A stretch of 64,000 nt of DNA from Mesonia aquimarina (GTDB taxonomy: Bacteria; Bacteroidota; Bacteroidia; Flavobacteriales; Flavobacteriaceae): the NCBI RefSeq assembly GCF_003667275.1, contig NZ_RCNV01000009.1, positions 100,848 to 164,847 of the forward strand, read 5' to 3'. Position 1 is the stretch's first letter, and every line of letters begins with the position of its first letter. Made by a program: the position numbers and the translations under genes. Under the pieces are notes generated by a model. It made no database searches and was not told the origin of the DNA. It worked only from the letters and a program-made list of their open reading frames with translations. This document shows positions 10,318-64,000 of this stretch, piece after piece.

Positions 10318-13300
10318 TTATATTTTGCCCCCCACCCCTTTAAACTTTTCTACAAAAGCTGATATTTTTTGAAATACAGTTTGCTTTTTGGTTAAATACT
10401 GAGGATTTAAAGGACTCATTTTTGGTAAAATAGAATTCAATTCTGTACCGTTTTCACTGGCGTATTCGCGTTTTAGTGAAGATAGCATATAGCGCTTCGC
10501 TGCGTCTTCATTTAAGTTATCGTCCTCTATTAATTCTTCGGCTTCTTTCTTTTGTTTCTTTTGAGCAAATTCAAAGAAAGCATCTATAATACTAGACTTG
10601 TCTTCTATTGCATCCAGGTCGGTAGAATTTATGAAATCTACGACTAAGCTTTCTTTGGCTCTATTCCCAATACTAGCACGAATTACGCGTCTTATTTCTT
10701 CTACTAAGTCTGCTTTACTTTTTGTTTTCTTATTATTCTCAAAAATCAATTCAAGAATATAGTCTAAGTTGATTTCTTGTGATTTTAATAAGTCTATTTC
10801 AAAAACTACATCATCCCAATCGATATTAGATTCTTCAGCCTCCTTACCTTGTTTTTCTCTTCTTAGCCAATCGCGAATATCGTTATAGGTAGAGCGATAG
10901 TCTTGGACGGTTCGTTCTTCCAGCACTTCAAGGCCTTGCATTTTTTCAATATCTACATCACTTAAGAAATTCTCCTCCTTAAACTCTTCAATTGCTTCTT
11001 TATCATCTTTATCTATTTTTTGGAGTTCTTGAAGGTGTGTAAATTCATCATAATTTTGCAAAATGTTTTCTACACGCAAGTATTCCCCAAAAAGTTTAGA
11101 AAATTCTTTTTTATCTTTTTCTGTTTCTATTTGATCTGGATTTGGGAACTTTTCATTCAACTCGTTTACAATTTCTATGTAACCGCGTCGCGCTTTGCCT
11201 GTGGCTATGTCTTCAAAGCCTTCTAAGTATTCTTTATAGCTTTTTTCTAAAACAACATTCTTTGTCTTACTATCACCAAATAGCGTAATCGCATCTACCG
11301 TAGCTTTTTCTAAATCTCTAAAGGTGACAATGTTTCCAAACGTTTTCGTGGCGTCGTAAATACGATTGGTACGTGAAAAGGCTTGCATTAAACCGTGGTA
11401 ACGCAGGTTTTTATCAACGAATAATGTATTTAAAGTCGGTGCATCAAAACCGGTTAAGAACATCCCTACGACAATTAAAAAGTCGATATCCTGATTTTTT
11501 ACTCTTTTGGCTAAATCACGATAATAGTTTTGAAATTCTTTGCTATCTACTCCAAAACTGGTTTTAAACATTTGGTTATAATCACCAATAGCTTTGGTTA
11601 AAAATTCCTTACCACTCATATCCATTGCAGCAGGCTCGAAGGTCTCATCCTGAATCTCACCTATTGCATTTTGTTCTTCATTGGCTGCAAAAGAAAAGAT
11701 GGTTGCTATTTTTAAGGGCTTATCGCTCTCTTTTTGCAACTCATTCATCATTTCGTAATAGGACTTTGCTGCATCGATACTACTTACTGCAAACATTGCA
11801 TTAAAACCGGTATTACCTCCTTTGGTTCTATGAGTTTTTTGCCTGAAATTATTTAAAATATATTGCGATATTTCTTTGATTCTTGTTGGATGTAATAATG
11901 CCTTTTTGTTTTCTGCGGCACTTAATTTATCTAAATCTTGTTCTGTTTCTATCCCTTTAAATTGAGGGCGAACATCGTTATAATCTACCTTGAATTTTAA
12001 TACTTTTTCATCACGAATGGCATCGGTAATTACGTAGGAATGCAACTCCCTGCCGAATACGCCTGCCGTTGTATCTGCCCCTAACGCGTTTTCAGGAAAA
12101 ATTGGTGTGCCGGTAAACCCAAATTGATAGTACTTTTTAAACTTCTTCTGTAAGTTTTTTTGAGCTTCTCCAAATTGTGATCTATGTGCTTCATCAAAAA
12201 TAAAAACTACTTGCTTCTGGTATAAGGCTAAATTATTTTCACTTTTAATGAGGTTATTCAATTTTTGAATAGTAGTAACTATAATCTTATTATCGTCTTT
12301 CTCTATATTTCTTTTTAACCCGGCAGTATTTTCTGAACCGTTTACACTATCAGGAGAAAAACGTTGATACTCCTTCATTGTTTGAAAGTCTAAATCTTTC
12401 CGATCTACAACAAAAAATACTTTATCTATAAAATCTAATTCTGTTGCAAGCCGTGCTGCTTTAAAACTGGTAAGGGTTTTACCGGAGCCTGTTGTATGCC
12501 AAACATAACCACCACTTTCTGTAGTAGCCCATTTTTTAGCTTCATAGCTGCTTTTAATTTTCCATAAAATCCTTTCGGTTGCAGCAATTTGATAAGGACG
12601 CATTATCAATAAGGTGTTACTTATATCGAACACCGAATAATTAAGCAAAATATTGAGTAAGGTATTTTTCTCAAAAAAAGTAGCAGTAAAATCTTTTAAA
12701 TCCCTGATGAGTGAATTGTCAGATTTTGCCCAATTCATCGTAAAGTCGAAACTGTTTTTATTTCGCTCTACGGTATTTGCAAAGTATCGGGTATCTGTAC
12801 CGTTTGAAATTACAAAAAGCTGTAAATATTTAAACAGTGAATTTGTAGTATTAAAACTTTCTTTGGTATAGCGGTGTACCTGGTTAAAGGCTTCACGAAT
12901 GGCAATACCTCTTTTTTTAAGTTCAATTTGTACGAAGGGTAAACCATTGACTAAAATCGTGACATCATAACGATTGGCGTGTGTGCCTTTTTGCTCAAAT
13001 TGTGAAATGACTTGCACTTTATTACGCGTCATATTCTGTTTATCTACTAAATAGATATTTTGGATATGCCCATCGTCAAATACAAAATCATAGATATAGT
13101 CGTCGTGTACCTTTCTTGTTTTATCAGTACTATTATCGCTGGGTTTGTCTAGATACTCTACTACAAAACGCTGCCACTCTTTATCGGTAAATTGCATATC
13201 GTTTAGATTTTGCAATTGTACCCGCACATTGGCCAGCATTGATTGTTGATTAAGCTGCGGAAGCACTTCGTAGCCTTGATTTTTTAGATCTTGGATAATC

Positions 13301-13422
13301 TCTCTCTCTAAATCTGCTTCGGTTTGATAGCTTACAGGGGCTTCATTAACTTCTGAAAACTTTTTATACTTGTCTAAAACAATAAAGTTTTTTGACTCAG
13401 CTATGGGTTTATATTCTTTCAT
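10318..13422 (-). CDS. hsdR: Type I restriction endonuclease subunit R (HsdR)
   Basis: 1034 residues, normal for HsdR. N-terminal nuclease domain: D153 ([10 protein letters not shown]) and E167/K169 (QIELKKRG) form the PD-(D/E)xK site. Superfamily 2 motor: Walker A at 312-316 (TTGSGKT), DEAH at 410-413, TGTP at 437-440, and motif VI around [10 protein letters not shown]. The C-terminal helical domain binds the methylase core. HsdR cuts unmodified DNA after ATP-driven translocation. Its start overlaps the prrC stop by 4 bp (ATGA), as expected for a type IC EcoprrI/EcoR124-like operon. No frameshift seen, so the system should be able to restrict. Confidence 0.96.
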
Positions 13423-14621
13423 AAAATTATTTCTTCAGTATCGACATTAAACTGATATGTTGACGAAATTTCTTTTACAAGTCGTTTAAAAATAAGTTTA
13501 TCGCCAGTGGTTACAATATTCGCCTCTTCTCCCGAGTGTTTAGAATGACTGGATGCGTTAAGTATCCGTTTTACGTAAGGTTCTTTATCTCCTAAATTTG
13601 TTTTTGTTATTAGGTTACCCCAATGTTTATGACCAAGAAAAGTAGCTGTTTTCTCTAGAATATTTCGAAGTAAATTGAAATGAAATTTTTCAATATTATT
13701 GGATAAAGCAACATCCTTTAAAATAGACAAAAGATGTGTATGGTAGGAAAATGGAGAATCGTTTTGATTGTTGGTAAGTTGAAGTGTACCATCATCAAAC
13801 TTTTCTAATAAATATTTCTCCAGTTTAGGTTTATAGTTATAACGAGCGTCTTTGTTGTTAAGTTCGTTATATATCACATTATAAAATAACGGATTGTGAG
13901 TTGTAATAATAAATTTTATATCAGATTGGCAGGATTTTATTAAGGTTGCAATATTTACTGCTAGCTCAATTAAGTGCGTATCGTCTAATGAGCTTACTGG
14001 ATCATCAATAAATACATATTCTAATTCATCAAACTGATCTGTTTCACGCTCATCAGGTTCTGGTGTGTTTAATACCTCAATCACCTGATCTAATAAGCTG
14101 TAGAATACACTCCAAATAAAACAACTCTCTTCTCCTTTTGAAATTTTTATATTTCTTAAACTATCATCATCACCACTTTCTATTGAAAAGGTTACTTCTG
14201 AATAGGCTTTTACCGTAACATTTTTATTTTCTCTATTCTTAAAGGTGTACTGTTCGTTAAAACGTGGGGTAATTTTTTTTGAGGAATAATATTGAAAATT
14301 ATCGATAACGTCCACTCCTTTACCTTGATCTGCAAGTATCCAATCTGTAAAACGATTTGATTGTATTTTTAGCTTTCTGTCTAAATCTCCCTTTAAATCA
14401 TTATCCCAATAAAATAGATCTTCTGTAAATGCATTATAATACATGATTTTAACTTTAGTCTCTTCTTCTTGATTCTCTTGATCTATTTCTTTAGGCGATA
14501 CTAATTCCTTAAACTCTCGCGACAATCTGGTTTTACCAGTCCCATTAAAAGCATACATTAACTGAACCCTTTTTTGAGAATCTACAAGTTTTTGCGCTAT
14601 TTGTTCTAAAGATTGACTCAT
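13419..14621 (-). CDS. prrC: Anticodon nuclease PrrC (latent tRNA-Lys ribonuclease)
   Basis: 400 residues, compared with 396 for E. coli PrrC, and collinear with it as far as I recall that sequence. ABC-like NTPase part: Walker A FNGTGKT at 25-31, the PrrC box region [18 protein letters not shown] at 60-77, signature SKGEES at 161-166, Walker [14 protein letters not shown] at 202-214, H-loop IITTHNP around 242. The C-terminal nuclease part carries the Arg-Glu-His triad: R319 and E323 in [14 protein letters not shown] and H359 in ASSHSKHS. In E. coli PrrC is held silent by the type I enzyme and is released when a phage inhibitor (T4 Stp) perturbs it, then cuts tRNA-Lys. The placement between hsdS (1 bp gap) and hsdR (4 bp overlap) is identical here. 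Confidence 0.92.
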
Positions 14622-14622
14622 C

Positions 14623-15831
14623 TTATACTTCTATATTTTCTTTTGGAAAGTCTAACAACATTGAACGATAGTATTCATATTGTTTTTTACGTAATTCTAT
14701 TTCTTTAGGTAAGCCTTCGCTTATTGAAGTGGTAAGGGTATCAAATTTATCGAGAATAGAGACGATGCGTTCTTGTTCTTTTGGGGAAGGGATAGGAACT
14801 AGAAACTTTTTAAAACCGTTCATATCTACAGACGCGAAACTAGATTTTGTTGTATTATTTTTACACCATTCATCTAATAGAAAACTATAATAAAAAAGAA
14901 ATTTTATATTAAATCTATTTTTATATTTTTTCTTTAGACTCAAATTAGTAAATCTTTGATTAGATAAATAAGGAACAGTGATTAAAGCATGTTCTCCAAT
15001 AGTTGCAGAAGTAGCAATAATAATAGAATTAGCAGGAAACAACTTACCGCCTTTAACTCCTTTTTCATTAACCCTTTGAATAGAATTATCTAAAACTCTT
15101 CCATGTTCTCTAATATCTTCCATACGGAACCAAGGAATAGTACCATTTGTCCAATACTCTTTATTCTTTTTAGAAGGTGTATAACCATTTTTAACATTAA
15201 AAATATCCTCTAAAGTTTCCCATTCCACTTCCTCCTTATCAAAACTCAATAACTGGTCGCGATAATACTCAAACTGCTGTTTACGGGCGGTAAGCTCTGC
15301 GGTAAGCTCTGCGGTAAGCTCTGCGGTAAGCTCTGTAAACGTATCGAGAATATCAACTATTTTTTGTTGAATTTCTAGGGATTTTTTTGACTTATCGGGA
15401 CAAGGGATGGGAATTTCCTTATTCGCATAATTACTAATCCATTGTCGTTTATGATCACCATCAACTAAACCACTTGGAATTGTGTTTAACCAATAATACA
15501 AATACTTTAATAAAGCTTTTGATTCATCTTTAGAGGTAATCATTTTCATTGCAGATGATTTCACTTTAAAATCAAAGTCTACCCACTTGTTAGCAGTCGT
15601 AAAATCATCAAAAATTATCACAGGATTTTCTGATGCCTTGTATATACCGTTGGTCTCATTAGTATATCCCAATAAAAATGTTTTACCTGCAGTTAATACA
15701 GGTGTTTTGTATTCGTCACTATAAAGTTTTGATTTTACGCGATATTTAGTTGGCTGTTCATAATCGGCATAATCACCCAAAGTTTTCCATTCAACCTCAA
15801 CCCCATCCAATAATTTTTCTAGATAATTCAT
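14623..15831 (-). CDS. hsdS: Type I restriction specificity subunit S (HsdS)
   Basis: 402 residues with the usual two target-recognition domains: TRD1 in residues ~1-150, a central conserved helix, TRD2 from ~200, and the C-terminal conserved helix ([20 protein letters not shown]) mirroring the central one ([20 protein letters not shown]). The central spacer is built of TAEL repeats encoded by four identical 12-bp units at 15287-15334, as in EcoR124, where repeat number sets the spacing between the two half-sites. It overlaps hsdM by 4 bp and precedes prrC by 1 bp. The DNA sequence recognised cannot be read from the protein. Confidence 0.95.
15287..15334 (-). repeat. Four perfect 12-bp tandem repeats in hsdS (TAEL-type spacer)
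   Basis: Plus-strand unit GCGGTAAGCTCT repeated four times without a mismatch at 15287, 15299, 15311 and 15323. On the coding strand the tract gives T-E-L followed by three T-A-E-L units. A change of one unit stays in frame and lengthens the spacer helix by four residues. Confidence 0.95.
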
Positions 15832-17375
15832 CCTTCAATCTCTTTTACGATGTTATCAATCTCAGCACGAAGAGTATCTATTTTTTTTACAGTTTGCGCA
15901 ACTTTTTTATTCAGCACCTCGATATCTATTTCCTCTCGGGTGTCTTTTGGTTCTACATAAGAACTTACGGAAAGGTTATAATCGTTTTCTGCAATCTTTG
16001 AATTATCAATAGTCGTAGCTACGTGTGCTTCTTCCTCTTTGCTGTCGAACATCTCTATAATCCTATCGATATGTTTGTCTAGCAATACATTATTATTCGT
16101 TTCTTTTTTAAAGAAATCTTCTCCGCTTACATCTATAAATTGGGTTTTCGTATCGGTTTTTCTTTTAGAAAGCACCAAGATATTTACCGCGATAGAAGTC
16201 CCAAAAAACAAGTTAGGCGCTAACGAAATGACGGTTTCTACAAAGTTGTTATCAACCAAGTATTTTCTAATTTTTTGTTCTGACCCGCCACGGTAAAAAA
16301 TACCCGGAAAACAAACCAAAGCTGCTCTTCCTCGACTGGACAAATAACTTAAAGCGTGTAGAACAAAAGCAAAATCTGCCTTCGATTTAGGTGCTAAAAC
16401 ACCAGCCGGAGCAAAACGGTCATCGTTAATCATTGTTGGATCGTCCTTACCAATCCATTTTACCGAGTATGGCGGATTGGAAACAATGGCATCAAAAGGT
16501 TTTTCATCACCCAATTCAGGAGCTACCAGCGTGTCACCGTGTACTAAATGAAACTTGTCGTAGTTGATGTTATGTAAAAACATATTCATACGTGCCAAGT
16601 TGTAGGTGGTGTAGTTAATTTCTTGTCCGTAGAAACCTTCTTGTATAATATGATTTTTAAAATAGGTTTTCGCTTGTAGCAATAACGAACCAGATCCAGC
16701 CGCAGGATCATAAATTTTATTTACGGTCTCTTGTCTATGCAATGCTAATTTAGCGATAAGGTGAGATACATTGGGAGGCGTGAAAAATTCCCCTCCAGAT
16801 TTACCTGCATTGGCGGCGTAGTTAGAAATCAAAAATTCATAAGCTTCCCCAAAAAAATCGATTTTATTATCTTCAAAACTACCAAACTTTAAACCGTCAA
16901 CACCTTTGAGGACTTTAGCCAATCGGCTGTTTTTACTTTCAACCGTACTTCCCAGTCGGCTGCTCGTGGTATCAAAATCCGCAAACAAGCCTCTGATATC
17001 TTCTTCTGAAGGAAAACCGTTGGCAGAACTTTCGATTGCAGAAAATATAGCTGCTAAATCTGTATTTAAGTTTTCATTAGAATTAGCCTCTTTAACTACA
17101 TTTATAAAAAGTTGGCTTGGATATATAAAATAACCTTTCGTTTTTACGGCATCTTCTTTAATCTCCGGCGTAATTACATCATCTGATAAACTAGCATAAT
17201 CTATACTTTCGTCTCCACCCTCAATGTAAATGGTAAAATTTTCGCTGATGAATCGATAGAAAAGCGTTCCTAAAACGAAGTGTTTGAAATCCCACCCATC
17301 TACTGAACCTCTAACTTCATTTGCTATTTTCCAGATTTGGCTCTTTAATTCGGCACTTTGTGCTGTACTTGTCAT
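15828..17375 (-). CDS. hsdM: Type I restriction DNA N6-adenine methyltransferase subunit M (HsdM)
   Basis: 515 residues. N-terminal helical domain (residues ~10-160), SAM-binding motif I DPAAGSG at 223-229, catalytic motif IV NPPY at 300-303 (SNPPYSVKW), and [13 protein letters not shown] just before motif I, all standard for HsdM. With HsdS it forms the methylase that modifies adenines in both half-sites and guides HsdR. First gene of the operon; the promoter must lie in the ~400 bp upstream (17376-17779). Confidence 0.96.
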
Positions 17376-17779: not shown

Positions 17780-19999
17780 CTACTTAATCATTTTCTTATG
17801 ATGTTCCTCATAACCCGCAATCTTAAATAGTTCCTCAAATCCATCTTTAAAATCATCATAATCAAATTCTTTAAAGTCAAATATATTTTGTCCTAAAGAA
17901 TGGGATTCCCTGTTTATATACCTGTAAAAAGCTTGAAATCTGTTTGAATTAAGTGGCTCTTGTTTAAAGAAGTTGTTCAAATCTTTCTTCTCAACAAAAT
18001 TGAAAAAATATTCAATTACATTTCTCATACAATTCGCAATTAAAGCTGGGTGTTGCTTTTCATCTTTAATTATATACCAATATGCTTGATAATCATTTTG
18101 TATTTCTTCATATCTCATTCTTTGAAAAGAGCTACCATCACCATTCTTTATTAATCTAATTAGTTTCTGATTTTCTTTTCGTTCTTGGTGTTTGGTTTCG
18201 GTAATCTCGTAGAAAAAATATAAGCTATGAGTTAGAATGAAAACTTACTCATAATTGTAATTCCAATTTACAATTCGTTCTCCCGTGTCTGGATTTTTTT
18301 TATTTTCTTTTTTTCCAAAAAACTCATTTTTTATTAATCTGCCGATATTAAAAACATAAATATGAGAAAGACTGGAAATTGGATCATCAATAACTATAAT
18401 CTTCTTTTTTCCAGTTTCTGTAACTTCCTGTTTTCCTTTACACATCTCAATAAAATACAAGAAACTGATAATCATTTTTTCTCCTTCGCTTAAGGAACGG
18501 AAAACCTTTTCTTCATTATCTTCTCGGACTATTTTGTATAAATTTTCAGAATGAGGTTCAATTTTAAAATCATTTATTCCTAAATCAATTAAACCGTCAT
18601 TTATACTTTTAATTGCTTCTTTAATATTGACAGTTTGTTTTTGTTGTTCTGAAATAATATTTCTTTGCTCAGAAATTTTATCATCTAAAGCTTCAATTGA
18701 ATCGGTTAATTTATCCGATTTAATTTTTGAATTATTTTTTTCTTTATTATAGGATTCAATGGTTTGGTCATAATCCCATCTCATATTCTCCCAAAATTGA
18801 CTTTTTATTTTTGATCTAACTTTTGTTTTCTGGTCAATATTCTTATTATGTTCTAAAATTGAGGTATTGATTTGATCTACGAGTTCATTAAAATCTTGTG
18901 TAGCTTTTACCGAACTATCTAAGGCAATGGCAACACTCGGAGTTTTTATTTTAGACTCTATTTTCTCTTTATTTGATTCAACTATTTTCGTTAATCTGGC
19001 ATATATAATTTCAAAGTCTTGTTTAAAGTCTTCGAATTTTGGATTTGTTTCATATATACTTTTATCTGGAATTGTCTTGATAGCATTAGAGTACTCATCT
19101 AAATAGGCTTTAAGTGAATTAAGATCAGATTCGTATGATTCATCAAAGTAACCTTGAATATTCTTTATCAGCTCATTGGTAATGCTTTTTTCTTGACAAA
19201 ACGGACAATTTTGATTTTCTTCTAAAGGAGGATTGGGTAAGTATTCCAAACCATCTTTAACCCAATCAGAATTACCTAGCTTAGTGATTAATTCCGATAC
19301 GCTACTATTTTCATTACCAACAATTGCCTTGCTAAATAATTCTTTTGATTCAATACCAGATGATGAAAAATTTATTTTTGGGACGTGAGTATATTTTTGA
19401 GCATTTTCACCAGAAATTGATTGTACTTCATCTTTAAGGTTTTCAATTGTTTTACTTGGCTTTGTAGTTGGTTTTGATATGGATTCTATATGACTAAATA
19501 ACTTATCTTTTGATCCTTTATGTCCTTCTAAGCAAAATTCAAGTACCCGATCACCTCCGCTGTAATCAGTCTTAATTTTCCAAACAGTATTTTTTGCGTT
19601 ATCAAGTTTATTATCTAACGATTTTTTTTCCTTTCCTAAATCTTCAATCTTTTTTTCTTTTACTTTATCAAGTTCATTAATTTCTTTTTCAGCTTCAGCT
19701 ATTTTTATTTCGGCCTCCTTATTTTCTTTTGATAAAGTGAAAATACCTTTGAGATTTTCAGATTCGAAAAAGCTCTCTTGTATGAAAGTTTGGTTATATA
19801 CAAGTATTTCGTGATTATCATCTAAACCCTCAACGGAACAATTTTTAAATTTCTCAAGATCTCTTTTGAGCAGATAATTTGATAATGTGCTTTTACCCGT
19901 TCCATTTAAACCGTAAATCAGATTTACCTTCTTATCCGTTTCTAATATCGCTTGACTTTTATAGCTCGCTACTTTATTTAAATTTATCTTACTTATCAA
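17780..19999 (-). pseudogene. RloC-like zinc-hook anticodon nuclease interrupted by one in-frame stop
   Basis: One frame of 740 codons with a single TAA at 18245-18247. Upstream part (584 residues): Walker A GLNGTGKST at 30-38, coiled coil, zinc hook CPFC at 265-268, second coiled coil, signature RSLSEGEKM, Walker B IIVIDDPISSLSH. In the same frame after the stop: VFILTHSLYFFYE (H-loop), then a C-terminal domain with R659 and E663 (MRNVIEYFF) and H700 (INRESHS), the Arg-Glu-His triad of PrrC/RloC anticodon nucleases. RloC proteins combine exactly these parts. The stop separates the NTPase from the nuclease. A downstream ATG (codon 628) could start the 112-residue tail alone, after the H-loop. 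Probably inactivated recently, since no other damage is visible. Confidence 0.85.
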
Positions 20000-21236: not shown

Positions 21237-23198
21237 TTATTTTATTATATCTTTTATTTCTTCAATCCAACCTAATGTTTTATTTATATCAGAGTTTTCA
21301 GTTATTTCTATATATTTTTCAGCAAAAACTATTTTGTTGTTGCCATAATTTTTATTAAAAAAAGCTTTCAAAATATCTTTTTCGGAATCCTTTAAATCTA
21401 ATGCGTTTTTAGAATAGATAGATTCTTCTCTTATACTTTCAGGTTTAATTAATCGTTTTAATTCTTCATTGTCATTTGACAGATGTTTTAAAGCTTCTAT
21501 GTAATGAGTTGAGTCTAATGAATCTTCTATTGTTGTTTCTGTAGTCAAATCAGAATTAATTTTGTGTAAAATTGTGTTATCGTTTTTATTAAATACTAAC
21601 CTTTTAAAATACAGGTTTTTATTGTTAATGACGGTCTCTGCATCAACTCTATTTGCATCAGTGTCAATTAAACAAATTATTTTTCCTTTTTTGTCATAAT
21701 CGGTATCTTTAAAAGGTCCCAATAAATAGTTATAAATTTTCATTACTTCTTCGTAACCTCCAACAGGTAGTATCCTTAGTTTTTGTTCTTGTATCTCTTT
21801 TTTAAAGTAATATTCAAAATATATTTTTTCTGATGAACCTTCACATATTATCCAATTATAAGGTTCTTCTTGAATTAAAGAAATAGTAATAGATTGTATT
21901 AAATCATTATAAGATTTAATACGATAATCTATTGATAAAGGTCCTCTAATTTTAGCTTTTTTATGTCTTTCTTTTTCTTGTTTTATAAATTCTCTAAAAT
22001 TGCTTAAACTGAAAAAATCTGTTGTGATTTTATTGTCAGAATTTTTATTTATTGAAGTTGCCGTTCCTTCTGTTACGATTGGTAAAAAACCGTACCAATG
22101 AGTTGTAATTAAGATTTGATGATTTTCTCTAGCTATTTCAATTAACTTTTCGAATTGTTCGTAACAATTACTAATATGTAATGATGATTCAGGTTCGTCA
22201 ATTGCTATTATTAGGTTAGAATCTCTATCCAAATTCTTTTTTAAGAAAGAATATGCTAAACCTATTAAAGCTTTTCTTTTTTCACCTGAACTTAGTTCAT
22301 TTACAGATATTGTTTTTGTTGAACCAGGGATTTTTTTGTTAAGTTCTTTAATAGAAAAATAAGATTCAATTATTTTAGAAACTAAATCTGGCATTGTTAA
22401 GTTATTTTTATATTTACCCTTATAAGTATAGGTTTCTAAAACACTTTCAATGTCTTTTACAAATTTATCTAAATGTCCATTTATTTGATTAATAGTTTTT
22501 TGAGTAATTGCTTTTTCAATTTCTGATTGAACATTTTTGTCCATTAATTTTTGCATATCCTGTGTTTCTAACTTAGTATAAGTTTGAACATCAGTTTCTA
22601 CAGGTATATATAAATACGAGTAATGTGAAATTATATATTCATAAAACCCATTAAAATATTCTTGCAATTCTGTTTCTTCATATTCTTTATGAGGTTTATC
22701 ATTTATAAATGAAAGTTTCTTTTGATATGAACCAAAAAAACAACCACTACTTTTATATTTTCTTCCTACTAATAATAAAAAGTATTCATCAGGACTAAAT
22801 TTTTCTTTAATTTTTTTTCTATGTTCATAAAAAGCTTCTAAAGATGCTCCCTTTGCCTTTTCATTTGTGCTCCATAAAAAATCTGATAAATTTTCAGCTT
22901 TTTTATATTGTTCTATATCTGCTTTTAAGGAATTACGTAATTTATTTTTAGGAATTAAAAAAATAGGAAGAATATAAGGACTATTATTTCCACTTATACC
23001 TTCGGATTTAGCCTCATAATTGATAGACCAATCAGTAAAAGGTCTTTTGTTAAAAAAACAATCAAAGGACTCTAAAATAGAACTTTTTCCTGCTCCATTT
23101 TCACCAAGAATACTTGAGAATTTTGTGCCGTCAGATAATGGTAAATAGTTAACTCCTTTATATATCTTATAATGTCTTATTATTAGTGATATTATCAT
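21237..23198 (-). CDS. OLD-family ATP-dependent endonuclease (AAA ATPase + TOPRIM)
   Basis: 653 residues. ABC-type ATPase: Walker A LGENGAGKSS at 31-40, signature VNELSSGEKRKALIG, Walker B LIIAIDEPESSLHIS, H-loop ILITTHWYGFLP. C-terminal TOPRIM nuclease: acidic motif WIICEGSSEKIYFEYYF (Glu) and ICLIDTDANR (Asp-x-Asp), plus a basic IVFAEKY near the end. This is the overettingham (OLD) layout used in several anti-phage systems (class 1 OLD, GajA of Gabija, PARIS fusions, retron effectors). No UvrD-like helicase (GajB), reverse transcriptase or separate DUF4435 gene is adjacent, so it appears to be a stand-alone OLD nuclease. Single-gene unit, 158 bp downstream of an XRE regulator. Confidence 0.8.
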   Translation of the reverse strand: MIISLIIRHYKIYKGVNYLPLSDGTKFSSILGENGAGKSSILESFDCFFNKRPFTDWSINYEAKSEGISGNNSPYILPIFLIPKNKLRNSLKADIEQYKKAENLSDFLWSTNEKAKGASLEAFYEHRKKIKEKFSPDEYFLLLVGRKYKSSGCFFGSYQKKLSFINDKPHKEYEETELQEYFNGFYEYIISHYSYLYIPVETDVQTYTKLETQDMQKLMDKNVQSEIEKAITQKTINQINGHLDKFVKDIESVLETYTYKGKYKNNLTMPDLVSKIIESYFSIKELNKKIPGSTKTISVNELSSGEKRKALIGLAYSFLKKNLDRDSNLIIAIDEPESSLHISNCYEQFEKLIEIARENHQILITTHWYGFLPIVTEGTATSINKNSDNKITTDFFSLSNFREFIKQEKERHKKAKIRGPLSIDYRIKSYNDLIQSITISLIQEEPYNWIICEGSSEKIYFEYYFKKEIQEQKLRILPVGGYEEVMKIYNYLLGPFKDTDYDKKGKIICLIDTDANRVDAETVINNKNLYFKRLVFNKNDNTILHKINSDLTTETTIEDSLDSTHYIEALKHLSNDNEELKRLIKPESIREESIYSKNALDLKDSEKDILKAFFNKNYGNNKIVFAEKYIEITENSDINKTLGWIEEIKDIIK

Positions 23199-23355: not shown

Positions 23356-23577
23356 CTATTTGTTCGGCAACTCAATATCCTTACAAACTTTTTTAAAAAG
23401 AAAACCGGGATCCTCATCTACAGCTAACGCAATTAAATATAACTCTCTAACTCTTAATTGAGTGCTTGGATTATTCGCCAATTCACTCAACCGAGTTTTG
23501 CTAATTCCTGTTTTACGAGAAACATCTGATCTATTAATAGATTTTTTAGCAAAATAGAGCCCTAGTTCAGTCATCAA
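23356..23577 (-). CDS. Small XRE-family helix-turn-helix regulator
   Basis: 73 residues. MMTELGLYFAKKSINRSDVS then RKTGISKTRLSELANNPSTQ is a lambda-Cro/C1-type HTH (recognition helix around SKTRLSELA). The C-terminal ELYLIALAVDEDPGFLFKKV packs as helices 4-5. It lies upstream of the OLD nuclease on the same strand and divergently from the sigma-like gene at 23781, so it could control either or both. Direction of regulation is not evident. Confidence 0.85.
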   Translation of the reverse strand: MMTELGLYFAKKSINRSDVSRKTGISKTRLSELANNPSTQLRVRELYLIALAVDEDPGFLFKKVCKDIELPNK

Positions 23578-23780: not shown

Positions 23781-24614
23781 ATGCGCGTTAAAGCCCGAAA
23801 TCTTATGCAAACCCAAGACTTCCAAAACCTAAAACAAGGTAAGCCCATCGCTTTAGAACACCTCTATCAACAATACAGTCGCATGCTTTTTTGGTTGGGC
23901 AAGGAATTGATACGGGATGAGTTCGTGATTGAAACCTTGGTACAAGAAAGTTTTTTAACCCTATGGAAACATCGGGATACGCTAGAAACCCCACAGCACA
24001 TCTTCTTTTTCCTGCGCTATGTCATGAAACGGGAATGCACCTATTATTACTGTCGGCCCAAAAATAAGTTTAACCGTTCCATCAACCGACTCAGTTTTTA
24101 CGGCAACTATGAAGATTATATGCTAGGGCACGATCCGGTGGCGGAGGAAGATGAACATTTATTGGAACAAGAAGCTACCCAACGAGCCTTTGAACAGGTT
24201 AAAAACGTACTCCCCTACTTGAGTGCCGAGCGAAGTCGGCTGATCGAACTTTGCATTACCTATGGCTTTCAGTATAAAGCCATTGCCGAGGTGATGGGAA
24301 AAGGAATTACCCAAACCGCCAATGAGGTAAAACGTGCCATTGCCGAACTCAAAAGCATCCTGCGGCAAGACAATGCCCTTGAACCGGAAAAGCCCCAAAA
24401 GGCGCTAAAGCTACAAGGCAAAATGACCGAGGAACAAGCCAAGGTGTTTCAATTGCGTTGTGAAGAGGCCTATTCCTTTGCCCGTATCGCGGAAGAATTA
24501 AACTGCTCTCAAAAAGAAGCGCAACAGGAGTTTATGACCGCCTATAGCTTTATGCAGCAACAGCACGAACAACAAACAAACTCCCTCGGGGCAAGCCTCC
24601 AAGGCATTCGTTAG
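23781..24614 (+). CDS. ECF-sigma-70-like factor with an extra C-terminal HTH, paired with dCas12f-like gene
   Basis: 277 residues against ~180-200 for an ECF sigma factor. Region sigma2 at ~24-90 (LEHLYQQYSRMLFWLGKELI, ETLVQESFLTLWKHRDTLET, FFFLRYVMKREC); sigma4 at ~143-195 (VLPYLSAERSRLIEL, FQYKAIAEVMGKGITQTANE). An additional sigma4-like helix-turn-helix follows at ~213-260 (KMTEEQAKVFQLRCEEAYSF then ARIAEELNCSQKEAQQE). ATG at 23781 is used; the ATG at codon 9 (23805) is equally plausible. The stop lies inside a genomic repeat that extends to the next gene, 72 bp away, which encodes a catalytically dead Cas12f-like protein. I infer that this sigma factor is recruited to DNA by that RNA-guided protein. 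The third domain could be the docking surface. More GC-rich than its surroundings. Confidence 0.8.
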   Translation: MRVKARNLMQTQDFQNLKQGKPIALEHLYQQYSRMLFWLGKELIRDEFVIETLVQESFLTLWKHRDTLETPQHIFFFLRYVMKRECTYYYCRPKNKFNRSINRLSFYGNYEDYMLGHDPVAEEDEHLLEQEATQRAFEQVKNVLPYLSAERSRLIELCITYGFQYKAIAEVMGKGITQTANEVKRAIAELKSILRQDNALEPEKPQKALKLQGKMTEEQAKVFQLRCEEAYSFARIAEELNCSQKEAQQEFMTAYSFMQQQHEQQTNSLGASLQGIR

Positions 24615-24672
24615 AAACAAATTTTCAATTTCAAGGCAAGCCTCGGGGAGTAATCCCGTTGGCGGTGCCAAA
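24580..24672 (+). repeat. CTACCTCG...GGCGGTGCC intergenic repeat, copy A (between sigma and dCas12f genes)
   Basis: Shares GGCATTCGTT(A/G)GAAACAA, ATTTTCAATTTC(A/G)AGGCAAGC and GGCGGTGCCA with copies at 32069-32173 and 46266-46366. The ends pair (ACTCCC with GGGGAGT). It supplies the last ~11 codons and the stop of the sigma-like gene and ends 14 bp before the next start codon. Confidence 0.8.
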
Positions 24673-24686
24673 AACCGGTATCTAAG

Positions 24687-25784
24687 ATGAAAAAGAATAC
24701 GATCAAACTCACCCGAAAAATACAAGTGGTAGTCGATCTCCCCACAGCGGAAGAACGCAAAGAAGCCATCGGAAAACTATACGACTGGCAAGATCGCGCG
24801 TATAGAACAGCAAACCTGATGGCTTCGCACCTCTATGTACAGGAAATGATAAAAGAATTCTTTTACCTATCGGAAGGGATACAATACAAACTAGTCGATG
24901 AACAAAAAGAACCAAACGGCATCTTACAAACCTCCCGGATGAATACCATCTATCAGGTCACCTCCAAACGTTTTAAAGGCAAGATGCCCACCAACATTAT
25001 TTCCTGCTTAAAGGCGACTATGTACAGTAATTTTAAAAAGAACCGTGATGCTTATTGGCGGGGCGAAAGTTCCTTGATGAACTTTAAACGGGATATGCCT
25101 TTTCCTTTTACCACCGAAGGCATGAGCAAACTGGTCTATGACAACGAAAAGAAAGCCTTTTGCTTTCGCTTGTTTAAGATTCCATTAAAAACCTATTTAG
25201 GCAGGGATCATAGCGATAAGTGGAAACTGTTGCAGCGTGTCACCCGAGGTGAACTCAAGTTATGCACCTCCCATTTACAGCTGAAAGACGGAAAAACCTT
25301 CTGGCTAGCGGTATTCGAATTGGAAAAAGAAAAGCATGCCTTAAAACCAGGAGTGGTAGCGGAAGTTTCACTTTCGTTGGAATATCCCCTCGTGCTTAAA
25401 GTCGGAACAAAACGTTTTCCCATCGGTACCAAAGAAGAGTTTTTACACCGAAGACTTGCCATACAAGCCGCTCGAAAACGCGCACAGGTAGGCGTGACTT
25501 ATGCCAAATCAGGCAAAGGACGCAAACGGAAATTAAAAGCTTTAGAAAGCTACCGGCAAATGGAACGGAACTATATCAAAAATCGCTTACACGTCTATAG
25601 CCGGCGATTAATCGATTTCTGCGTTCAACAACAAGCAGGAACATTAATGCTGATGAATCAAGAAGATAAAATCGGCATCGCCAAGGAAGAAGAATTTGTA
25701 TTTCGAAATTGGAGCTATTACGAATTAATCACCAAGATAAAATACAAAGCCAACAAAGCGGGGATTGAAGTGATTGTTGGGTAG
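24687..25784 (+). CDS. Nuclease-dead Cas12f/TnpB-like RNA-guided DNA-binding protein
   Basis: 365 residues; active Cas12f are ~400-550. N-terminal beta strand NTIKLTRKIQVVVD and helices follow the Cas12f/TnpB wedge-REC layout, with PTNIISCLKATMYSNFKKNR and FKRDMPFPF typical of Bacteroidota members. The RuvC part is recognisable but lacks catalysis: RuvC-I GIDxGxxxPLV is EVSLSLEYPLV (Asp to S228), RuvC-II xGTxxxExL is AGTLMLMNQ (Glu to M323), and the protein ends at IKYKANKAGIEVIVG, before the CxxC zinc ribbon and RuvC-III Asp. The bridge-helix region (RRLAIQAARKRAQ, KSGKGRKRKLKALESYRQME) is kept. It should bind guide RNA and target DNA without cutting. Linked to the sigma-like gene 72 bp upstream; a structured RNA candidate lies 200 bp downstream. 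GC-richer than neighbours, no transposon ends. Confidence 0.85.
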   Translation: MKKNTIKLTRKIQVVVDLPTAEERKEAIGKLYDWQDRAYRTANLMASHLYVQEMIKEFFYLSEGIQYKLVDEQKEPNGILQTSRMNTIYQVTSKRFKGKMPTNIISCLKATMYSNFKKNRDAYWRGESSLMNFKRDMPFPFTTEGMSKLVYDNEKKAFCFRLFKIPLKTYLGRDHSDKWKLLQRVTRGELKLCTSHLQLKDGKTFWLAVFELEKEKHALKPGVVAEVSLSLEYPLVLKVGTKRFPIGTKEEFLHRRLAIQAARKRAQVGVTYAKSGKGRKRKLKALESYRQMERNYIKNRLHVYSRRLIDFCVQQQAGTLMLMNQEDKIGIAKEEEFVFRNWSYYELITKIKYKANKAGIEVIVG

Positions 25785-25888
25785 TGAGAAGTGAGTAATG
25801 AGTAATTAGTAGTTAATGAGGAATAAAATGCTAAATTTTGAATTTTAAATTTTAAATATTCATAAAAAACCACAATGAAGTACCGTCA

Positions 25889-25909
25889 CCCTGAACTTGA
25901 TTCAGGGTC
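25889..25909 (+). terminator. Hairpin after dCas12f-like gene
   Basis: CCCTGAA-CTTGA-TTCAGGG stem-loop about 105 bp after the stop. It resembles the arms of the palindromic repeat at 42634-42712 and lacks a T-run, so the terminator call is tentative. Confidence 0.35.
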
Positions 25910-25984
25910 TCATCCTCAAGATATTGTTTTTTCAGTATAGTAGAAACTCTTGAATTTGAAATTCGAAATTAAAAATTTGAAATA

Positions 25985-26070
25985 ACCGAGGGTGCTTGCA
26001 CACCCGTAAGGTGAGGTAACAATTACACTCACTAAGTATTTTAACATGCAACGCGTGGGCTCTTTTTTTT
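25985..26070 (+). ncRNA. Candidate guide RNA of the sigma/dCas12f locus
   Basis: A compact, GC-richer block in AT-rich flanks. Hairpin 1: GGGTG (25990-25994), loop CTTGCA, CACCC. Hairpin 2: GTGAGGTAA (26011-26019), loop CAA, TTAC-A-CTCAC (26023-26032). Then TAAGTATTTTAACATGCAAC (26033-26052), GCGTGGGCTC and eight T (26063-26070). The TTGCA in loop 1 can pair with TGCAA at 26047-26051, a pseudoknot of the kind seen in Cas12f/TnpB RNAs, and ATGCAAC resembles the 3' end of a Cas12f repeat. An AT-rich promoter-like stretch with TTTG boxes precedes it. The guide could be the 20 nt after 26032 or after 26052. Position downstream of the dCas12f-like gene fits a guide RNA; RNA evidence is lacking. 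It might instead be an unrelated small RNA or terminator. Confidence 0.55.
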
Positions 26071-26173
26071 GTTTTAAGCAGTAGGCTGTAAGTCGTAAGC
26101 TTTATGATTAAAATTACTAAAGCCCCAAACTATAACATTAAACCTTCAACATTAGACATTAAACATTTTTAAT

Positions 26174-26455
26174 CCCCGGCCTATCGAAAAAAGGATTAAA
26201 AATCAAGGAAGCAGCGAGGCGATGGGATGAAAATCTGTTTGAAACCGACCGAAAGGGAGGTTGAGTTATTTTCATTCGTGGCGGCGGGTTCCGTAGTATT
26301 TTTTTATGCTTTTTTCGTAAGCCTAGATCTTTTTGTTACTTTTTACAGCAATGGTAAAAAGTAAATAGCATTAGTTTCGTAAGCCTAGACTTTTTTGGTT
26401 CTTTTTTATCGTAACCGACCAGTGTAAGCAGAGAATTACGTTGGCAAAAAGTAAA
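26174..26455. repeat. Diverged member of the CCCGGCCTA...GGCAAAAAGTAAA repeat family
   Basis: Starts CCCCGGCCTATCGAAAA and ends with two GTTTCGTAAGCCTAGA(C/T) and (G)GCAAAAAGTAAA motifs, like the copies at 26632, 27064, 29925 and 30372. Its centre (GCAGCGAGGCGATGGG, GACCGAAAGGGAGG) differs. No coding potential seen. Confidence 0.6.
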
Positions 26456-26631
26456 AACAACTCATGGAAAAAGAATATATCACAAAAAGATACTTCGACT
26501 CCACTTCGTTCGCTCAGTATGACAACTTAAATTTTAAAGCTCTAGGCTTTATGCGATAAGTTTTAGACTATATACTTAAAGTTACTGAAAACCTAAATAC
26601 AACATTAGACATTAAACCTTAAACATTCCAA

Positions 26632-26803
26632 CCCCCGGCCTACAGAAAATAGCTCGTAAAATTTGAAGAGCCGGCTCCGTAAAATTTTAGGCTGTTTGAA
26701 CGGAGTGAGTTCCTAAAATTTAGGAGGCAATCAATAAATTTAGAGCTAGTTTCTTAAGCCTAGACTTTTTTCTTAGTTTTTGCGGCAATGGCAAAAAGTA
26801 AAA
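26632..26803. repeat. Intergenic repeat R1, copy 1
   Basis: About 172 bp from CCCCCGGCCTACAGAAAA to GGCAAAAAGTAAA. The core has CGTAAAATTTTAGGCTGTTT and GAGTTCCTAAAATTTAGGAG, which can fold on themselves. Nearly identical to copy 2. Confidence 0.85.
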
Positions 26804-27233: not shown

Positions 27234-27829
27234 TAGCATTAGTTTCGTAAGCCTAGACTTTTTTGGTTCTTTTTTATCGTAACCGACCAGTGTAAGCAGA
27301 GGATTACGTTGGCATAAAGTATAACAACTCATGGAAAAGAATACATCGAAAAAAGATACTTCGACTCCACTTCGTTCGCTCAGTATGACAAATTGTTTGT
27401 TAAAGCTGTTCGCAGTAGGCTGTAGGCTGTAGGCTGTAGGCTATATGCTTAAAGTTACTGAAAACCTAAATTCAACATTCAACTTTAAACCTAAGATCCC
27501 GGATCAAGCCCGGGATGACAAATCGATTTTGAGTTCAAATTTGTCAGTTCAAGTGATTTTCAAGAAATGTAATGGAATAAAAATTGTATCGAGAACAGTT
27601 ACTGCCATCCAGAGTGTAACACAATGAAGTGAAGGATCTTTCCGTTATGAAGAAGCAGATACTTCGACTCCACTTCGTTCGCTCAGTATGACAAGTTTTT
27701 TGTTAAAGCTGTAGGCGCTAAGCTGTTCGCAGTAAGCTGTAAACTGAAACCATCAAAATTAAACATTCAACATTAGACATTAGACATTCAACATTCCAAC
27801 CCCCAGCCTATCAAAAACTACAAATCACC

Positions 27830-31932: not shown

Positions 31933-31935
31933 GGT

Positions 31936-32014
31936 TGGCTTTAGGGGTATTCTGAAAAGAATTGAGAGAGTCCCTTTGAACCTGATTCGGTTAGTACCGG
32001 CGTAGGGAAAAGTT
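31936..32014 (+). promoter_or_regulatory. TPP (thiamine pyrophosphate) riboswitch
   Basis: Contains the conserved parts of the THI element in order: AGGGGTATTCTG, the GAGAGAGTCCCTTTGAACCTGA core (31966-31987; the usual CTGAGA is here TTGAGA), then TACCGGCGTAGGGAAAAGTT. It lies 160 bp upstream of thiM and will turn the thiamine salvage operon down when TPP is plentiful. Confidence 0.95.
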
Positions 32015-32068
32015 GAACTTGTATTTCTTTCTATTCTAGAGGAATTCGTCCTTCAGCCATTTATAAAG

Positions 32069-63913: not shown

Positions 63914-63917
63914 AAAA

Positions 63918-64000
63918 AAGGCGGCGACATACTCTCCCACAATAAGTAGTACCATCTGCGCTAACGGGCTTAACTGCTCTGTTCGGAATGGGAAGAGGTG
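63918..64000 (-). rRNA. rrf: 5S ribosomal RNA, 3' part (cut by window edge)
   Basis: Reverse complement contains CCTCTTCCCATTCCGAACAG, AGCAGTTAAGCCCGTTAGCG and ends GGGAGAGTATGTCGCCGCC, the conserved 5S 3' two-thirds. The rest of the rRNA operon lies to the right of the window. Confidence 0.95.

Follow-up and report, generated by a model that had tools for sequence, protein, structure and literature searches.

In this 64,000-nucleotide stretch of the Mesonia aquimarina genome (hereafter the window), a sigma factor gene and the gene for a nuclease-dead Cas12f (dCas12f) constitute a known kind of RNA-guided activator, now in another genome. The guide RNA encoded downstream of the pair probably (with a chance of roughly two in three) directs dCas12f and sigma to a leader before a susC-susD-M16-peptidase operon, where the complex would recruit RNA polymerase and start transcription. 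The original prediction of an RNA-guided pair made of a dead Cas12f and a sigma factor is supported, as both proteins are, judged by sequence, homologues of two chains in one solved complex (PDB 9n9q); the guide, its target and the self-target of relatives are additions to that prediction. New here are the match of the guide core to a conserved terminator-like leader and the architecture of this leader, which we worked out. The features of the locus are collected in Table 1.

Table 1 Features of the sigma-dCas12f locus (positions are those of the window)
Feature	Position	Strand	Basis
Divergent 73-aa Cro/C1-type HTH gene, 5' of the operon	23356..23577	-	HTH_26 1.3e-07
ECF-type sigma factor	23781..24614	+	277 aa as called; profile and PDB matches
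Nuclease-dead Cas12f, 365 aa	24687..25784	+	S228 and M323 at the catalytic positions, without RuvC-III and zinc ribbon
Guide-RNA scaffold, three stem-loops, end ..GCAAC	25988..26052	+	Covariance model R2, E=1.2e-15; covariation
Guide GCGTGGGCTC, then 8-T run 26063-26070	26053..26070	+	Location directly 3' of the scaffold; guides of relatives compared

Both open reading frames are present as had been described, 72 bp apart. The sigma protein had been called ECF-like, and this agrees with Sigma70_r4_2 (43.4 bits, E 2.6e-11, cut-off 25.7) and NCBIfam sigma70-ECF (60.4 bits, cut-off 42.9, residues 24-193), both above their cut-offs, while Pfam region 2 (22.8, cut-off 24) and TIGR02985 (74, cut-off 126) both stay below. 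Its residues 12-268 match residues 4-260 of the 261 in 9n9q_C, 'RpoE' (E=2.1e-87). The sequences of the closest relatives (L001-L003) begin at the methionine corresponding to position 23805, so that this is likely the true start. A sigma-like ORF precedes dCas12f in all 30 relatives measured, with a gap of 1-2 nt in 29 of them; the 72-bp gap is peculiar to the M. aquimarina copy. By eye, L001 has the same stretch upstream of the operon. The suggestion that both genes are GC-richer than their neighbours is clear on the upstream side only (0.36-0.46 for the pair vs. 0.24-0.31), since the downstream side has 0.33-0.42.

Residues 1-365 of dCas12f align end to end with residues 1-365 of 9n9c, 9n9m, 9n9o and 9n9q (E=1.4e-171), and PADLOC reports a Cas12f match (5.1e-52). 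Alignment with solved chains confirms the predicted losses: at residue 228, Ser replaces the RuvC-I Asp of nuclease Cas12f, at residue 323 Met replaces its RuvC-II Glu, and the C-terminus stops just short of RuvC-III and zinc ribbon (solved nuclease chains have 415-539 aa), a short form common to 18 aligned members of the family. By these alignments, the protein lacks the intact RuvC catalytic residues of a Type V-F CRISPR-Cas nuclease. Nor does it fit a TldR, derived from TnpB and without a sigma partner, since the NCBIfam TnpB model scores 67.2 bits (cut-off 100) and sigma is present in 30/30 relatives. The AlphaFold model has low confidence (pLDDT 60.5) and served only to list named PDB entries; the entries that it fits best carry the titles dCas12f-gRNA-DNA (partial R-loop) and dCas12f-gRNA (67 and 63% identical), and 9n9m and 9n9c are among its fold matches. 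The HMM and structure searches proposed earlier thus returned Cas12f, sigma70-ECF and, with this low-confidence model, dCas12f-gRNA entries. With the system to which the solved complex belongs the locus shares end-to-end dCas12f homology, the loss of catalytic residues, an adjacent co-directional homologous sigma and a scaffold downstream.

The structured intergenic RNA put forward as a candidate guide is recovered as a scaffold by cmsearch (E=1.2e-15, the window copy itself being one of the 50 training rows of R2), and 10 of its 18 pairs show changes on both sides among 50 sequences. It is the only copy found in this genome; across genomes the scaffold lies downstream of dCas12f in 32/33 loci, which, together with the sigma-like ORF in 30 relatives, bears out the expected co-occurrence of the components. 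Folding energy alone is weak evidence for a structured RNA, with z -0.70 vs. shuffles for 25985-26072 and z -2.33 for 25985-26052 (3/200 shuffles as good). The 8-T run may also end the guide RNA. Within the family, the scaffold was found in 13/299 genomes, namely the 12 with a dCas12f match (E 1e-40 or better) and G049, in which a dCas12f remnant adjoins it; in one of the 12, G294, dCas12f is partial, with stops. At gathering level, Rfam gave only a TPP riboswitch and 5S rRNA in the whole window, and up to E 1 nothing overlapping the guide RNA of L033. Guides of a second kind, e.g. AAAGCCTTCCC.., are present in G014, G021 and G128, and we counted them against the preferred explanation.

Within the M. 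aquimarina genome, a covarying structured leader carries the guide core GCGTGGGCT next to a 5' G, with 9 consecutive nt and 13/16 positions matching; it is located on contig C25, 511 bp before the susC-susD-M16 operon and 97 kb from the sigma-dCas12f pair; the predicted dCas12f binding site in it is GGCGTGGGCT. A second leader in this genome (G000:C24:2017) matches the guide by only 3 in a row. Genome-wide, guide-like sites are at background (15 vs. 12 for the reversed pattern, in two separate counts) and were therefore left out as evidence; the susC site is distinguished from the others only by its position in a leader, and this leader was among the rows on which the leader model R1 (below) was trained. 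The sigma-dCas12f operon here is without a self-target leader. Elsewhere, GGCGTGGGCTNNNNT has a single exact match (L088, C18:284821), which falls within a small coding sequence and was rejected as chance.

Among 28 relatives' genomes, the pattern of a 5' G, the guide core and CTTAT, with at most one mismatch, gives 66 matches (guide RNAs themselves included) vs. 5 when reversed. The leader model R1 finds leaders in 56/299 family genomes, including 12/12 with dCas12f (hypergeometric 6.6e-10), a figure to be read with the facts that R1 was trained on leaders of dCas12f genomes only, some among the 12, and that the test ignores kinship among genomes. Leaders away from dCas12f occur in 9/12 dCas12f genomes vs. 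44/287 others (Fisher 1.3e-5, again ignoring kinship). Leader-bearing family genomes without a dCas12f match number 44 at E 1e-40, and 43 lack a match even at E 1e-5, so conservation of the leader is not due to dCas12f. In a second set, 4/32 dCas12f genomes (G008, G024, G025 and G028) gave no leader. The leader precedes sigma-dCas12f itself in 15/29 loci. The longest run shared by guide and leader within a genome is at least 9 nt in only 19/29 genomes and 14-17 nt in 5/29; a permutation test over the 29 genomes gives no sign of co-variation (mean run 9.28 vs. 9.66 for shuffled genomes, p 0.82). One seed base differs between guide and leader in G012, G282, G026 and G162. The shortness of the match in M. 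aquimarina, the background level of guide-like sites, the leader-bearing genomes lacking dCas12f, the four dCas12f genomes that gave no leader and this lack of co-variation all weigh against the preferred explanation. In its favour, a leader GGCGTGTCATCCG.. stands before a susC-like gene in G021, and the guide of a second sigma-dCas12f locus there, GGCGTGTCATCCC.., agrees with it over 12 consecutive nt. Plasmids searched with 80 bases of leader gave no match.

The leader, which lies outside the window, has two mutually exclusive conserved pairings, one of them before a U-run, as in an attenuator. Scored on the alignment from which it was derived, the structure is paired in 97.0% of 959 cells, and both sides are changed in 104, vs. 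31 in shuffles. The strand that matches the guide (strand 2) pairs with an upstream strand and also with the strand before the U-run; the latter pairing holds in 392/392 cells, 6 of them compensatory, with 0/500 shuffles reaching its percentage paired and 2/500 its number of both-sides-changed pairs. At least four T follow within 14 nt of this terminator-like pairing in 55/56 leaders. RNAalifold returns the terminator-like fold from the longer alignment and a P1-P5 hairpin from the shorter one. We compared the two folds via predicted energy alone (means -51.1 kcal/mol for P1-P5 and -52.3 for the terminator-like fold, P1-P5 being lower in 25/56), and these values show only that the folds are comparable, because P1 maps only imperfectly to the longer alignment. 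The terminator-like fold encloses about 50 nt, which is long for an intrinsic terminator and was counted against the preferred explanation. Rfam searches of four loci up to E 1 gave no match overlapping the leader. A small divergent gene is located before 58/61 leaders, and genes like those for Cro/C1-type HTH proteins precede many of them.

These data suggest the following model. With the guide RNA encoded downstream, dCas12f and sigma would bind DNA within the leader about 0.5 kb before the operon, presumably forming an R-loop there, and the complex would then recruit RNA polymerase, so that transcription begins at the leader and the importer genes are likely switched on. In the dCas12f-sigma family, transcription starts about 46 bp downstream. 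Here, counted downstream from the 5' G, initiation would fall at about 45-50 bp, between strands 2 and 3 of the terminator-like pairing; guided transcripts would then be missing the 5' arm of the terminator and could escape attenuation. In relatives, a leader before sigma-dCas12f would give positive feedback on the operon; here, the operon lacks a self-target and is perhaps controlled by the divergent HTH protein instead. Only tentatively, at less than even odds, do we extend this to a regulon across the Flavobacteriaceae, in which one guide drives initiation inside bistable terminator leaders of susCD operons, with feedback in relatives, and the leader is an older or independent regulatory RNA with a varied HTH gene that was taken over by dCas12f. 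If true, the guide-leader link would account for a guide that hardly varies from species to species; one RNA could then control several importer operons plus its own genes, and RNA-guided initiation would be able to overlay an existing RNA switch.

The pair might also work as in the known family with a guide that, in this genome, has decayed or is aimed elsewhere, so that it would not act at the susC leader. In favour of this are the T-run that makes up the 3' half of the guide, a match of only 9 nt, the 72 bp between the genes, an operon without the leader found in 15/29 loci, and the lack of any other site in the genome with at most one mismatch over 14 nt of guide. We nevertheless consider it unlikely: both reading frames are intact, the length of 365 aa is shared by the two nearest full-length relatives (89 and 84% identical), and in the leader before susC the 9-nt core is retained exactly, together with the 5' G and the fold.

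Since the guide copies strand 2, it could instead bind in trans to the leader RNA, at strand 1 or strand 3, and tip the balance between read-through and termination, with RNA rather than DNA as its target. The guide has the same sense as strand 2, and both partners of that strand are conserved; a role for the sigma partner would be missing, a solved relative bears the title dCas12f-gRNA-DNA (partial R-loop), and in G021 the variant guide retains a G beside its match, all of which makes an RNA target very improbable. Least probable of all is a TldR-like repressor, whose R-loop in the leader would stop polymerase that had started at the leader's own sigma-A-type promoter. A TAnnTTTG-like box does stand directly before the leader, with TA at the expected place in 56/61, and corresponds to the sigma-A consensus in PMC9723704; the linked sigma factor and a solved complex that contains sigma argue against repression. 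Guided initiation at the susC leader remains our preferred reading.

A literature search, mostly without subscription papers and preprints, found no paper on a dCas12f with a sigma factor and none on this leader, and either may be published elsewhere. The closest known system is that of 9n9c, 9n9m, 9n9o and 9n9q (release date of 9n9c and 9n9m, 2025-12-24), which we take to be the dCas12f-sigmaE RNA-guided transcription system. 'Programmable', as the activator had been called, draws on work on this dCas12f-sigma family, which has a 5'-G motif, and not on the present data. The locus here is alike in both proteins (by homology), the dead RuvC, the order sigma-dCas12f-guide RNA and the 5' G beside the match; it differs in the 72-bp gene gap, the T-run that replaces the guide tail and the operon without a self-target leader. 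To our knowledge, TldR proteins act without a sigma partner. Like the window dCas12f, as judged by its sequence, they are RuvC-dead RNA-guided DNA binders; they differ in being repressors, and the window protein resembles Cas12f more closely than TnpB. TldR proteins are described as TnpB-like nuclease-dead repressors in PMC13418256; PMC12908284 and PMC13092281 both cite the TldR paper. The Cas12f nucleases (Al3Cas12f, 9nzo and 9nzr; CnCas12f1, 8hr5) share the fold, with 23-26% identity in the model comparison, but have chains of 497-508 aa and retain both catalytic residues of RuvC, Asp and Glu (alignment for 9nzo). Finally, as in attenuators and riboswitch-type leaders, the middle strand of the leader can pair with either of two partners but not both, and the second of these precedes a U-run; unlike them, the leader is without a known ligand, and its middle strand is copied by a dCas12f guide RNA.

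The guide associated with the nuclease-dead Cas12f (dCas12f) in the window belongs to an RNA whose layout is shared with relatives, where a conserved scaffold of three stem-loops lies 3' of dCas12f and is followed by the guide. Both sides have changed in 10 of 18 scaffold pairs (50 sequences). A covariance search of 33 loci (the window plus 32 relatives), most of which had served to train the model, found the scaffold in 32; the sole locus without a match, L024, has sequence that stops 17 bases past the dCas12f match. The scaffold is present in 13 of 299 family genomes, among them all 12 whose dCas12f match reaches E 1e-40 (in one, G294, the match is partial and has stops). The thirteenth, G049, has a dCas12f remnant of 52 residues directly before the scaffold. 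The guide core, which matches the predicted target, is almost invariant across many species, and some genomes have multiple guide RNAs with differing guides (for example at loci L003, L021-L023, L026 and L144). The same scaffold is followed by a different guide type (AAAGCCTTCCC..) at L144, L020 and L028. In the window, a dispersed repeat with CCTGAACTTGATTCAGG at 25884-25916 is covered by most of that stretch's 48 genome matches.

Searching the genomes of 28 relatives for the guide pattern preceded by the G adjoining the match (5' G), with at most one mismatch, gave 66 matches, the guide RNAs themselves included, vs. 5 for the reversed pattern. Inspection by eye of 30 retrieved loci places all those other than guide RNAs in a single conserved element, ~135-180 bp long and hereafter called the leader. 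A covariance model (R1), trained on 30 of these elements with the first one of this genome among them, returned two leaders here. Counts of guide-like sites as such in this genome are at background level. The guide agrees with the first leader over a short stretch, 9 consecutive nt and 13/16 positions overall. This leader, on the window's own contig (C25) ~97 kb before the sigma gene, is followed by a SusC-type TonB-dependent receptor (start 511 bp on), SusD and an M16 peptidase. Within ~1.5 kb downstream of the second leader (L124) there is no ORF longer than 51 aa. Non-coding repeats (..gtaagcctagactttttt.., ..gtaaaattttaggctgttt..) at 26100-26800 of the window recur, by eye, downstream of that leader.

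Features of the window (plain coordinates) and the two leaders of this genome (contig coordinates)
Feature	Position	Details
Type I restriction-modification genes R, S, M	10318-17375	PrrC-like gene between R and S
PDC-S06 piece	17780-18118	model positions 608-723 of 727
PDC-S06 piece	18245-19999	model positions 1-565 of 727
AAA_15 ATPase	21237-23198	weak OLD-like TOPRIM match, below cut-off
ECF-type sigma factor	23781-24614	
Cas12f relative (dCas12f)	24687-25784	365 residues; 72 bp after sigma gene
Guide-RNA scaffold, window copy	25988-26052	
Guide, window copy	from 26053	GCGTGGGCTC, then eight T
TPP riboswitch	31933-32025	
5S rRNA	63916-64000	cut by window end
First leader	C25:27633-27767	5' G at 27700; R1 match, also R1 training row
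Second leader	C24:2017-2150	R1 match, outside training rows; core diverged

Across 48 leader loci, some of them places listed under two handles, the next ORF is by eye SusC-like in 29 and the sigma-dCas12f operon in 7; the other 12 have another or no next gene, partly because contigs end. A receptor-sized gene (~1000 aa) is present in 16 of 20 longer leader stretches, once split over two frames, and absent in 4. Leaders L158, L159, L163 and L164 have no susC-sized gene of the receptor kind within 4.5-10 kb downstream, and may be stand-alone RNAs or remnants. On the other side, a divergent ORF of at least 55 aa starts 40-110 bp upstream (median 93) of 58 of 61 distinct leaders. Together with the window's own, 37/59 of these ORFs match HTH_3 and 37/59 match HTH_26 (E 0.01), and identity to the first member is mostly 15-26 %. 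The leader is preceded by a box (TA in position in 56/61) resembling TAnnTTTG, described for Flavobacterium psychrophilum as its sigma-A consensus (PMC9723704), and the leader RNA may therefore have its own promoter.

The element is a structured leader: in 30 sequences, 97.0 % of the 959 cells in its P1-P5 hairpin are paired and 14/32 pairs have changed on both sides, covariation far exceeding that of shuffled or slid versions. In this hairpin the guide-matched strand 2 (GGCGTGG) pairs with upstream strand 1 (GCTCACG). Strand 2 pairs equally with downstream strand 3 (CCACGCC), in 392/392 cells (56 sequences), with compensating changes in L126 (GGTGTGG with CCACACC) and in L080, L118, L121 and L122 (GGCGTGA with T in strand 3). 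The percentage paired between strands 2 and 3 was reached by 0/500 shuffles and the count of pairs changed on both sides by 2/500. The folds are similar in predicted energy, and at least four T follow strand 3 in 55/56 leaders. Two exclusive folds with a T-run are the build of an attenuator, with predicted termination.

Like the short match and the background-level site counts in this genome, the comparison of guides and leaders between genomes counts against the proposed targeting. The best guide-leader run is at least 9 nt in 19 of 29 genomes. Its mean across the 29, 9.28 vs. 9.66 in shuffled genomes, gives no sign of co-variation in what is a weak test, because most leaders share one core. 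Guide and leader mismatch at one seed base in four genomes (G012, G282, G026 and G162). In favour of the targeting, an unusual guide at a second sigma-dCas12f locus in G021 matches an unusual leader, which stands before a susC-like gene, over 12 consecutive nt; variant guides likewise match variant leaders in G015 (10 nt) and G016 (9 nt).

R1 matched 56 of the 299 family genomes under stricter filters that lose weak matches. Of these, 44 lack any dCas12f match, and profile searching turned up only the G049 remnant among them; the leader therefore does not depend on dCas12f. At that remnant (G049:C1:23251-23523; L193, L292) the guide RNA survives, and the genome retains three leaders. A leader precedes the sigma gene in 15 of 29 dCas12f loci with sufficient upstream sequence (the window and L001-L032, minus L007, L016, L017 and L019), most of the 15 being R1 training rows; one extra weak match upstream of sigma in L015 is excluded. 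R1 found no leader before the sigma gene in the window and L001, which instead share a divergent HTH gene there, and none anywhere in 4/32 dCas12f genomes searched, a further point against the targeting. Statistics on the co-occurrence of leader and dCas12f in the family carry no correction for kinship or for the fact that R1's training rows came from dCas12f genomes. Neither the leader nor its relation to the guide was found in the literature searched, the coverage of which was partial.

By extension from the solved family, the complex would open DNA at leader strand 2, where the guide would occupy the template strand and the sigma factor would bring RNA polymerase to start ~45-50 bp downstream. 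Work on dCas12f-sigma systems reportedly places the start about 46 bp downstream. The predicted start coincides with a TAAG that is conserved at 47-49 nt from the 5' G (49/56 leaders) and falls between strands 2 and 3, the latter beginning 58-62 nt from the 5' G. A transcript begun at TAAG would lack strands 1 and 2, and the terminator could not form. Where the leader precedes the sigma gene, feedback on the sigma-dCas12f operon would result.

The restriction-modification genes form a defence island beside the pair. A gene of candidate defence family PDC-S06 (AAA_13) at 17780-19999 is broken in two, and the AAA_15 ATPase is perhaps another defence gene. The spacer between the sigma and dCas12f genes (24615-24686, 72 bp) is 1-2 nt in 29 of 30 relatives measured.

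In the window's dCas12f, the RuvC Asp and Glu of active Cas12f are replaced by Ser (residue 228) and Met (residue 323), and the C-terminus falls ahead of RuvC-III. This short form is common to 18 aligned family members, and lengths are mostly 360-374 aa among the best 120 of 1137 relatives retrieved at E 1e-3 or better. Its best solved-chain matches are 9n9c, 9n9m, 9n9o and 9n9q ('Nuclease-deactivated Cas12f', residues 1-365) and that of the sigma factor is 9n9q chain C ('RpoE', residues 12-268), so a single solved complex contains relatives of both proteins. The sigma-dCas12f pair belongs to an already known kind, for which a predicted guide and a predicted target in this genome can now be named.
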